Positions 45,587 to 48,456 of a stretch of DNA of 64,000 bases are shown here, piece after piece. Made by a program: the position numbers and the translations under genes. Below the pieces are notes generated by a model. That model saw nothing but the letters and a program-made list of their open reading frames with translations. It did not search any database and was not told where the DNA came from. Source of the stretch: Actinobacteria bacterium HGW-Actinobacteria-2 (GTDB lineage Bacteria; Actinomycetota; Actinomycetes; Propionibacteriales; Propionibacteriaceae). The stretch is from assembly GCA_002841335.1 (NCBI GenBank), contig PHEY01000003.1, positions 124,001 to 188,000 on the forward strand, given 5' to 3'. Numbering within the stretch: the first letter of the stretch is position 1; each line of letters begins with the position of its first letter.

Positions 45587-45908
45587 GGTCATCTCCCCGA
45601 TCACTGGCCTAGTCGGACAGGGGTTAGCCGACGATCAGACAGCGATTGGAGCCGATGTTAGAACACTGTTGTCACTAATTCCCAACGCGTTCTGAGAATT
45701 GTGGACAACCCCGCTGCCTGTGGATATCTGTACGAGGATTTTGAAACGTCAGCAATTGAAACGAACGAAATCCGCGGGGACGAGGCGGGTCGGAAGCCGA
45801 GTTTATGCCGTCAGCATCCAGGTGCTCCGGGTGCCGTCCACGGTGGAGCAGAGCCCGCGGCTCGTCCTGTGGTTGGGCCTGAAAGGCCTAGTCAGGCGAC
45901 GTTGATCT
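45587..45908. other. Gene-free leader of the tad locus
   Basis: No convincing coding sequence. It is more AT-rich than its surroundings in 45660-45790 and carries DnaA-box-like sites at 45700-45708 (minus strand TTGTCCACA) and 45719-45727 (one mismatch). The tad promoter should be here, but no clear -35/-10 pair could be picked. Confidence 0.4.
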
Positions 45909-46049
45909 TCAGCAGCCCGGCCACCACGGGAAGACATCACACACGTCTGGACCGGACTGCCCCGCTTGGATCACCTGCACGATCAGGCCCGCAAGGGCGG
46001 TGCTGACCATCACCGCACCGATCGCAACGTCTACTGCCCAGCTACGCAT
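45909..46049 (-). CDS. Putative 46-residue membrane peptide with two cysteines
   Basis: The ORF starts with MRSWAVDVAIGAVMVSTALA, continues as one hydrophobic helix to about residue 29, and ends in CDVFPWWPGC (Cys37 and Cys46, the last residue). Third-position GC is high, in line with a real gene, but the ribosome site is weak. It lies between the tad locus (same strand) and a divergent two-component system. It could be a small Tad component, or a membrane-anchored peptide with a disulfide loop. Too short for routine annotation. Confidence 0.4.
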   Translation of the reverse strand: MRSWAVDVAIGAVMVSTALAGLIVQVIQAGQSGPDVCDVFPWWPGC

Positions 46050-46229
46050 GCTTCATGGTCAGGCCGGGTGAGCTGCGACGGCCCGGCCGAGCGGCGCGCT
46101 TTGGCCAGTTGGCTAGCGGAATTGGCCAATAGGTCAACGAGAGTGTTTGCGTAGTCAGCAGGGTGCGTTAAGTTTCACCCGGGGAAAGCGACCACGAGTG
46201 GTAACGGGGTCGTCGGGTGAGGAGGTCCG

Positions 46230-47357
46230 GTGGTCAAAGCATCGCCGTGGAGCAGGCTGGGCGCAGGCGTGCGTTCCCTGCTGAATCCGGGTCGTGTCGA
46301 GCTGGTCCTCTCAGGTCTGACCATTGTGTTCATTCTGACGATCATCGGCCCCAAGGAAAGTCCACTCGGAGCCGCCCTCGACATCCTCGCCTACAGCTTC
46401 GCCGCCCTCGCCGCGCGCTGGCCCAAGACCGGGGCCACCTTGTTGGGTTTGTACCTGGCGGTCCGTGGCTTCCTGCCCCGCGAGATGGGCAGCCTGAGCG
46501 AATACAGCGCACTGTACGTATTGCTCGGTGTCGGCATGCGTGGCGACTTCGTGATGCGCCGCGTCCTGACCGTGATCTACTACCCCCTCCTGATCTGGGT
46601 GACCCGGGTGTTCACCCCAGACGCAAAGGCGTTCGGACAGAGCTTCCTGATCTGGATCCTGCTCATCGGTTTGGTCTGGTTGATCGGCAGCGCGTCACAC
46701 GGCTACACCACCGCGCTGCGCCGGGCGCACGCCGCCGAAGCCCAGCTGCAGCGCCAAGTGCTCGCCCGAGAACTGCATGACACCGTGGCGCGATCGTTCT
46801 CCAAGGTGGCCATGGTGAGTGAACGGGCACGCCTTCGCGGTGGCGCCACCGCCGACGACCTGGACGTGATCAGCGAAACCGCGGCGCAGGGTGTGGACGA
46901 GTTGCGTTTGGTGATGAGCCTGCTGCGTGACCCGGCGGCCTCTGTCGAAGCGCTCAGCAGTGGCACTTCGTTGGCCGAGGCGCTGGCTGAGGCCCAGAAG
47001 TCGTTGCGGGCCGACGGGTTCAACACCGCGGTCAGTGTCGAGGGCGATCTGAACGCGCTCGACGAGACGGCGTCGGCCACCTTGGCTGCGGTGACCTCCG
47101 AAGCGGCCGCCAACATCCTTCGCCACGGCGACGCCAGTCAGCCGGCCGGCATCATCGTCCACATCGACGACGCTCGCGCGGACGTGACCTTCCTGAACAC
47201 CCCGGTCAGTGACGACACTCACGGCTCGGCTGAGCCGCTGGGATTGCGGGGCCTGCGCGAGCGCGTCGAAGGCGCCGGGGGTACGGTGAGTTACGGAGTG
47301 GAAGACCAGCTGTGGGTGGTGCGCGTCGGATTGCCTGTGGCGGAGAAGGCGGCTTGA
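46230..47357 (+). CDS. NarL-type membrane sensor histidine kinase
   Basis: A 375-residue kinase. Four or five membrane helices occupy residues 24-155 with little outside the membrane, so the signal is probably sensed in the bilayer. RELHDTVARSFSKVAMV holds His183 of the HisKA_3 domain; EAAANILRHG (N-box) and GLRGLRERVEGAGG are HATPase parts. GAGGAGG precedes the GTG start. Its stop overlaps the regulator start by one base (TGATG). Confidence 0.85.
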   Translation: MVKASPWSRLGAGVRSLLNPGRVELVLSGLTIVFILTIIGPKESPLGAALDILAYSFAALAARWPKTGATLLGLYLAVRGFLPREMGSLSEYSALYVLLGVGMRGDFVMRRVLTVIYYPLLIWVTRVFTPDAKAFGQSFLIWILLIGLVWLIGSASHGYTTALRRAHAAEAQLQRQVLARELHDTVARSFSKVAMVSERARLRGGATADDLDVISETAAQGVDELRLVMSLLRDPAASVEALSSGTSLAEALAEAQKSLRADGFNTAVSVEGDLNALDETASATLAAVTSEAAANILRHGDASQPAGIIVHIDDARADVTFLNTPVSDDTHGSAEPLGLRGLRERVEGAGGTVSYGVEDQLWVVRVGLPVAEKAA

Positions 47358-48019
47358 TGAGCGAGAACCAGACCGGGCCGATCCGGGTGCTGATCGCTGA
47401 CGACGAGCCGATGGTCCGCGACGCGCTCACCGAGTATTTGGGCGCCGCCGACGACATCGAGGTGATCGGTACCTGCGGCACCGGCGTTGAGGCCGTCGAG
47501 CAGGCGCTGGCATTGACCCCGCACGTGATCCTGATGGACATCCGGATGCCCACCGTGGACGGAGTGGCCGCCACCCGCGCCATCGTCGAGAGCAGCCCGG
47601 ACATCCGGGTGGTCATGTTGACCACCTTCGACGAGGACGAAGTGATCGCCGACGCCTTTGCCGCTGGAGCAGCCGGCTATCTGCTGAAGACCACTCGATC
47701 GACCGCCCTGGCTGAAGCCGTCCGCGCAGCCCATGCCGGGCTGTCGGTGGTGCCGCCGGGCCTGGTGAGCCGGTGGAGCCCCGCACGAGCGGTGGCCACG
47801 CCGCCGCGGCTGCTGCCTCGTGAACGTGAAGTGCTCGAGCTGCTCGCCCGCGGGCACACCAACGCCCAGATCGCGAGCAAGCTGTTCGTGTCGGCATCGA
47901 CGGTGAAGATTCACGTTGCCGCGTTGATGCGCAAGCTCGACGCCGAGAATCGCACCAGCCTGGCCGCCCGCGCGCACGTTCTGGGGCTGATCGCCGGCGG
48001 GCAGTCGAGCCAGGAGTAG
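47357..48019 (+). CDS. NarL/LuxR-family response regulator
   Basis: A 220-residue regulator: IADDEP acidic pocket, Asp61 in ILMDIRMPTVDG, conserved Lys in YLLKTTRST, and a C-terminal LuxR helix-turn-helix (LPREREVLELLARGHTNAQI, then SASTVKIHVAALMRKL). Partner of the kinase in front. ATG 47357 is chosen because it is coupled to the kinase stop and the longer frame would begin inside the kinase. Targets unknown; the small-peptide ORF and tad locus upstream are candidates. Confidence 0.9.
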   Translation: MSENQTGPIRVLIADDEPMVRDALTEYLGAADDIEVIGTCGTGVEAVEQALALTPHVILMDIRMPTVDGVAATRAIVESSPDIRVVMLTTFDEDEVIADAFAAGAAGYLLKTTRSTALAEAVRAAHAGLSVVPPGLVSRWSPARAVATPPRLLPREREVLELLARGHTNAQIASKLFVSASTVKIHVAALMRKLDAENRTSLAARAHVLGLIAGGQSSQE

Positions 48020-48153
48020 CTGCAATTGGCCAAGTGGACAACGATTTAGCCACTTGGTGGATGTTGCTCAAGGCCGTCTCATGTTGGGATGTGGGAGCGC
48101 TGAGGGATTCGTAGAGGCGGGCTCAAAGAGTCCTCGCAGTGCGAGGAGGAAAA

Positions 48154-48456
48154 GTGAGCACCACCGTAGTCACGGCGTTGGCGCCCAAGTTGTCGGCCTA
48201 TTCGCTGCTCATCCGGATGGTGATCGATCAACGGATTTCGGCGCGCGAGTTCGAGACGCTGTATCTGCAGCTCTACCAGGACGATCCCACCGACTGGCCG
48301 ATCGATGTCCTTGACGTCCTGGAAAGCCTGTTCGCCGACCTTGACGAACTCTTCGGCCCGAACGAACCGGGTAACCCCGGACGCGCCAGCTCTGAACTGC
48401 AGCGACGGGCGCGCGGCGCCTACTCTCGGCTCGCCGAGCTGGCACCAACCATCTGA
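48154..48456 (+). CDS. Colicin-immunity-like small acidic protein
   Basis: The 100-residue product has LLIRMVIDQRISAREFETLY, LDVLESLFADLDELFG and ELQRRARGAYSRLAEL. This arrangement resembles the four-helix, acidic proteins of the colicin-D immunity/self-protective type, which bind and block a tRNase toxin. No toxin is next to it. The start is GTG 48154 with GAGGAGGAAAA just upstream. The match is by pattern and could be a general helical acidic protein. Confidence 0.5.
   Translation: MSTTVVTALAPKLSAYSLLIRMVIDQRISAREFETLYLQLYQDDPTDWPIDVLDVLESLFADLDELFGPNEPGNPGRASSELQRRARGAYSRLAELAPTI

Follow-up and report, generated by a model that had tools for sequence, protein, structure and literature searches.

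We propose that a 46-codon gene in the window (the whole 64,000-nucleotide stretch of DNA analysed) encodes an autoinduced, disulfide-ringed peptide signal that would be read by the adjacent HisKA_3/NarL kinase-regulator pair, a reading to which we assign a probability of about 0.65. An autoinduced peptide signal read by a six-helix kinase would be the simplest account of what the computation revealed, namely a conserved gene, constrained ring codons, adjacency to a kinase and a regulator, recurrent operator-like sites and a kinase model with six helices. The ring peptide is a strong candidate for an undescribed cell-to-cell chemical signal. Quorum sensing by peptides is, to our knowledge, poorly known in actinobacteria, in contrast to Firmicutes, where it is well known.

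In the proposed mechanism, the gene product would be a precursor for a small extracellular peptide, the last ten residues of which are predicted to be ringed by a disulfide between two cysteines. The hydrophobic N-terminal part would serve either as a Sec signal peptide or as a membrane anchor, placing the ring outside the cell, where it may act as the ligand of the divergently encoded six-helix kinase. The ligand-bound kinase would phosphorylate the NarL-type regulator, which in turn may bind a pair of palindromes between the peptide and kinase genes and so lead to more peptide, resulting in autoinduction. By binding at a second place, the regulator would also drive output genes, which encode a colicin-immunity-like protein in the window and, in relatives, other products or a bacteriocin cluster. 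The features concerned are collected in Table 1.

Table 1. Features of the putative signalling locus (window coordinates)
Feature	Position	Strand	Basis or remark
Ring-peptide precursor gene, 46 aa	45909..46049	minus	ORF and translation; profile match E 1.9e-13, with its own sequence included in the profile
Ten codons of the CX8C ring CDVFPWWPGC	45912..45941	minus	DNA pattern, pN/pS, ring collection
Operator-like site TAGCCAACTGGCCA (minus-strand reading)	46102..46115		Upstream of peptide start
Second operator-like site TGACCTATTGGCCA (minus-strand reading)	46123..46136		21 bp from the first
HisKA_3 (NarL-class) sensor kinase, 375 aa, proposed receptor	46230..47357	plus	PF07730 E 1.2e-7; model
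NarL/LuxR-type response regulator, receiver and GerE helix-turn-helix	47357..48019	plus	Pfam scan (as 47312-48019)
Operator-like site TGGCCAAGTGGACA	48027..48040		Just past regulator stop
Poorer operator-like copy TAGCCACTTGGTGG	about 48047-48060		Near the 48027 site
Colicin_immun (PF09204) protein, 100 aa, proposed regulon member	48154..48456	plus	E 3.3e-7

The ORF is real and occupies exactly the positions assigned to it by the initial annotation, which gave no strand; it reads on the minus strand. Its translation, MRSWAVDVAIGAVMVSTALAGLIVQVIQAGQSGPDVCDVFPWWPGC, has the single hydrophobic stretch and the C-terminal two-cysteine ring (CX8C) that were described, laid out as an N-terminal signal or anchor, a short spacer and the ring CDVFPWWPGC. 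The gene does lie between the tad operon and the divergent HisKA_3 kinase gene, as had been stated. The tad operon shares its strand with the peptide gene, with a CpaB-like gene running from 45604 downwards, so that the peptide gene is 304 bp upstream of it. The peptide matches no Pfam or NCBIfam family (Pfam cut-off E 0.1), and no clear Shine-Dalgarno sequence was seen by eye upstream of the ORF. Nor does the window peptide contain a clear signal-peptidase site, and it might remain anchored. The approximately 300 bp between the peptide and CpaB (45605-45908) contain no called gene and have a G+C content below that of their surroundings; this interval may hold a tad promoter.

The peptide belongs to a family whose small members carry a signal or anchor and have a C-terminal CX8C ring, typically C-x3-P-x2-P-G-C. 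The 35 rings collected share the two cysteines without exception; P5 is found in 34 of them, P8 in 32 and G9 in 25, and positions 2-4 and 6 are variable. Most of the search patterns specified CX8C spacing, and many of the rings were found with patterns that included both this spacing and P5, so the conservation of these features is partly built in. Relatives' rings found on short ORFs include CDYFPFWPGC, CELIPWWPGC, CDVLPWWPGC and CDLFPYWPGC; that of Micropruina glycogenica is CDLFPFWPGC. At E<=10 the first search of relatives gave weak matches in 43 of 60 genomes; many of these were unrelated long frames, and we retained those whose frame is a short ORF with the ring at its end. Searched for as degenerate DNA, the ring turned up in 12 of 198 family genomes (none for a reversed control pattern); across the order it turned up in 11 of 391 genomes, including one outside the family, and a stricter pattern was found in 1 of 335 class genomes, the source genome itself. 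The sole match outside the family (G051, L045) is taken as chance, as its 3-kb locus has no kinase or regulator match.

We also scanned for the architecture of the precursor, defined as a short ORF with a hydrophobic N-terminal part and CxxxPxxxxC at most 15 aa from the stop. The window (64,000 bases) and 30 loci (324,671 bases) gave 16 hits, representing 12 distinct genes as four loci duplicate others; all hits are members of the ring-peptide family beside the kinase, and since the loci had been chosen for kinase or peptide, this tests specificity within them, not genome-wide. Ten first-order Markov sequences of 64 kb each (640 kb) gave no hits. The precursors of relatives are 17-37% identical, with a similar ring at the same place, and the ring codons have a pN/pS of 0.18 in seven closer pairs of rings. 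From these comparisons the ring codons look to be under purifying selection, and the gene is probably translated.

Some relatives have apparently cleavable signals with A-x-A ends (AVANA in G009a, TASA in G008 and SPANA in G188, judged by eye, as were all signal peptides). Many family members extend past the last cysteine, so the ring is presumably closed by a disulfide. No dedicated maturation gene was identified in a search limited to AgrB. In one genome (G186, set G186b) two ring peptides occur in tandem. The open-licence literature searched contains nothing on this family, and the strings PWWPGC, FPWWPGC, PFWPGC and PYWPGC are absent from the papers covered. The relatives are mostly partly incomplete genomes, and gene calls outside the window come from a custom script.

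The kinase and regulator adjoin the ring gene in all 12 family genomes identified by the ring DNA pattern (11 loci and the window), a pattern that carries no kinase information, whereas a CpaB homologue occurs within the stretch fetched in 6 of these 12. Four 20-kb stretches that carry peptide and kinase have no CpaB match (G015, G028, G032 and G164), and two further CpaB-negative stretches are only 5 kb long. These counts indicate that the partner of the peptide is the kinase, not the tad pilus. The initial annotation had offered both possibilities, a signal for the kinase or a small pilus part; conserved adjacency, co-occurrence, operator-like sites and ring residues all favour the former, in which binding to the kinase is predicted, while the latter does not hold up.

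A profile of the membrane part of the kinase (A1) gave 51 matches in 42 of 197 family genomes. At 32 of these sensor-domain matches a strict CxxxPxxxxC peptide gene lies within approximately 1 kb of the kinase-regulator pair, or at 33 when G178 is counted, which has a CX8C ring without the first proline (P5); a ring peptide is beside 25 of the best 29. The 18 matches without a detected peptide include four among the best 29 (G005, G026 C47, G165 and G009 C105), the others being G100, G186 C300, G183, G182, G179, G176, G187, G063 C2, G061, the second G164 copy, G185, G063 C12, G180 and G060. In G100, G187 and G186 C300 the kinase is near a contig end.

The peptide gene is divergent to the kinase in 27 loci (the window and 26 others). 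It follows the regulator in G188, G068, G178 and G018c, the last belonging to a kinase outside the 51 rows (G018 C14). In G022c and G177 the peptide gene is upstream of the kinase and on its strand, with another small gene in between in G177, and in G063a it is located between kinase and regulator. That the link between peptide and kinase survives such rearrangement argues for function. G018 and G022 have three kinase-peptide sets. No neighbour besides the kinase and regulator is common to most of the 31 mapped loci.

Within the genus, 16 strong peptide-profile hits (E 3.6e-12 or better) were found in 14 of 30 genomes, in 14 of the 15 that have the kinase and in none of the 15 that lack it (Fisher p 2e-7, a value that ignores shared ancestry and includes several incomplete genomes). 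As the profile was built from known members, the news here is the absence of strong hits elsewhere. A class-wide search with the sensor found only our own genome among 394, which is weak evidence of absence because 10 candidates were scored per genome. Nine named loci obtained via the kinase sensor include Propionicimonas MAGs, Micropruina glycogenica NZ_LT985188.1 and Micropruina sp. KQZ13P-5, and on their basis the 2.9-Mb source genome is taken to belong to a Propionicimonas-like bacterium of the Propionibacteriaceae.

In the window the start of the regulator gene (47357) overlaps the stop of the kinase gene. The sensing part of the kinase had been described as almost entirely within the membrane, and the kinase model agrees (mean pLDDT 80, pTM 0.47, from 10 sequences), with six helices at residues 20-39, 45-63, 65-79, 89-103, 107-128 and 132-202, the last of which continues into the bundle that bears the histidine. 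On the presumed outer face, the loops are about 5, 9 and 3 residues long. The best 50 of 497 matches to solved structures are cytoplasmic parts of histidine kinases, DesK first, and two phytochromes, and no title among these 50 names a membrane sensor of this kind.

Ring distance correlates with sensor distance (r 0.50) in 25 of 27 sets, G008 and G167 being left out because their kinase or regulator is incomplete in the map used. The partial correlation between ring and sensor is 0.31 given the catalytic half of the kinase (p 0.019) and 0.40 given the regulator (p 0.004); as the catalytic half keeps a partial correlation of 0.23 with the ring given the sensor (p 0.023), the sensor-specific co-variation is modest. 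Comparison of the regulator helix with the operator variants by eye gave no clear code.

The palindrome TGnCCnnnnGGnCA recurs in the 27 kinase-peptide regions, with 22 perfect sites against 0.36 expected. At least one site at 7/8 or better is present in 23 regions (6.4 expected) and at least two sites in 15 (0.8 expected), all figures that are inflated because the consensus was read from the regions in which it was counted. The four other regions have no site at 7/8 or better, and in some regions the sole site sits away from the promoter. Across the window, a loose form of the palindrome is not enriched (4 against 2.7 expected, a count reached by 30 of 100 shuffles), and a tighter form, fitted to these sites, occurs 3 times against 0.26 expected (0 of 100 shuffles).

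A less circular test used the pair of sites at 21 bp, with two mismatches allowed, in five whole genomes, and gave 14 to 23 matches in each, where the control gave 6 to 20. The sole zero-mismatch pair in the own genome is at the peptide promoter, which was the source of the pattern. A pair match also occurs just after the regulator gene in all four relatives (G004, G007, G008 and G023), where the window has its site at 48027 too. G026 C47 (L152 7696-7741) has a site pair upstream of a kinase that lacks the ring peptide; a second kinase copy in G026, with the peptide, is located on another contig. Based on the distribution of these sites, the regulator may control the peptide gene.

The Colicin_immun protein encoded downstream of the regulator has homologues at the same place in G004, G007, G008 and G023 (49-85% identity), and one is found in 5 of the 31 mapped loci, some of the maps being short. 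This family is known for nuclease colicins. In G032, a Lactococcin_972 gene (PF09683, E 6.7e-9) is preceded at a distance of approximately 300 nt by two operator-like sites and is followed by a DUF1430 bacteriocin-associated membrane protein (L034 3026-3331 and 864-2999); operator-like sites are also present there before the regulator, and none between kinase and peptide. Three sets (G009a, G026b and G164) carry genes for mutually related 661-713-aa proteins on the downstream side of the peptide, immediately next to it in the first two (L149 5381-7522, L139 5855-7960 and L035 7435-9420; one of these genomes is Micropruina glycogenica). These proteins look secreted in the two cases with sequence inspected, and the two scanned match no Pfam family.

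The linkage of a peptide gene to a kinase and a regulator is shared with peptide-pheromone two-component systems in general. By analogy, the best reading is that the system works like ComX-ComP or AgrD-AgrC and belongs to neither by the features tested. DesK, the best structural match of the cytoplasmic half, senses membrane state, and we know of no ring-peptide partner for it. The ComX peptide carries a C-terminal tryptophan, and ComA, like the regulator here, is of the LuxR type. ComQXPA resembles the present system in its short, variable, tryptophan-bearing peptide and in its PF07730 receptor kinase (here E 1.2e-7) with consecutive membrane helices (PMC4008528), and differs from it in that ComP is given 8-10 of these helices rather than the six modelled here. 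Two cysteines close a ring in the present peptide, unlike ComX, and the peptide gene is divergent in the window and 26 other loci, in contrast to the one-strand QXPA order. The window peptide (P0001) has no match to the ComX family (PF05952) in Pfam at E 0.1.

The agr system likewise combines a small ring peptide, the AgrD cyclic thiolactone, with a membrane-integral kinase, AgrC, that reads it. The thiolactone is formed at the C-terminal carboxyl, whereas many members here have residues after the last cysteine, which argues for a disulfide. No AgrB (PF04647) match was found in 10 genomes with the system, and no control genome passed the cut-off either. AgrC is an HPK10-type kinase (PMC4873836), whereas the kinase here matches HisKA_3. 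With no AgrB match and a HisKA_3 kinase, membership in agr is unsupported. The bacteriocin-inducing three-component systems ComCDE and PlnABCD are similar in that a peptide is joined with a kinase and a regulator and that the likely targets include bacteriocin or immunity genes. In ComD six segments lie in the membrane and three loops on the outside, and CSP-ComD has bacteriocin outputs (PMC4873836). They differ in kinase class, and no conserved double-glycine leader is apparent before the ring in 20 aligned precursors.

The main rival to a released signal, which we consider unlikely, is that the peptide is a small-protein regulator that stays anchored in the membrane and modulates the kinase of the same cell through its outside ring. 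By eye, the window and G004 peptides resemble single-helix anchors more than cleavable signals, the modelled sensor is almost entirely in the membrane, and adjacency and feedback sites would fit this arrangement equally well; however, several relatives (G009a, G008 and G188) have the apparent cleavable signals described above, and the ring varies at some positions in a pheromone-like manner. We think it somewhat less likely again that the peptide is an antimicrobial (a mini-bacteriocin) controlled by a kinase and regulator that sense something else. In some loci, immunity-like or bacteriocin genes do follow a site of this type, and the tandem pair in G186b would suit effectors, but the immunity gene is not constant, no neighbour other than the kinase and regulator is shared by most loci, and the sensor co-varies with the ring.

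A role as a minor component of the Tad pilus is highly improbable. The same-strand position upstream of the CpaB-like gene and the CpaB homologues in six pattern-positive genomes would suit it, but the inconstant linkage to tad genes and the lack of a Pfam match for the window peptide speak against it, and the 20-kb stretches with peptide and kinase and without CpaB largely refute it. Least credible of all, to the point of being nearly negligible, is an untranslated chance frame. Only 46 codons long, with no clear ribosome site and no database family, the ORF could have arisen in this way, yet like rings recur on short frames at the same place in precursors of low identity, the ring pN/pS is low and the control sequence gave no hits. 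The initial annotation had named a lack of conservation of the frame in related strains as what would refute it; the frame is conserved, so that its proposal passes this check and a chance ORF is refuted.

Returning to the peptide-signal reading, we put the odds at roughly even that these loci represent an undescribed group of actinobacterial Sec-exported, disulfide-ringed pheromones (C-x3-P-x2-P-G-C), which would have dedicated six-helix HisKA_3 kinases, no maturation enzyme, autoinduction through a shared operator, ring variants acting as private channels, and outputs in competition. If this is confirmed, the locus would be a compact three-gene system from Propionibacteriaceae (Micropruina, Propionicimonas) that could be rebuilt in a laboratory host, with a ring short enough for ordinary synthesis and natural variants that could map specificity. 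It would also tie peptide sensing to bacteriocin or immunity genes in a way that can be tested. Genes of this kind are missed by annotation, as the lack of family matches for the window peptide illustrates.

Two other types of small gene were observed near these kinases. In genus g29 (G177, G179, G180, G182 and G183; loci L105, L106, L108, L109 and L120), a different, conserved small two-helix protein with the motif ..SDLxVVxA..GDART.GAVGA.. is encoded divergently to weaker kinase homologues, and G177 has both this protein and a ring peptide. In L068 (G018 C14), an 86-aa ORF divergent to the third kinase copy, near the ring peptide CLVFPILPQC, resembles precursors of circular bacteriocins of the circularin/uberolysin type (TIGR03651, E 0.012, below cut-off).
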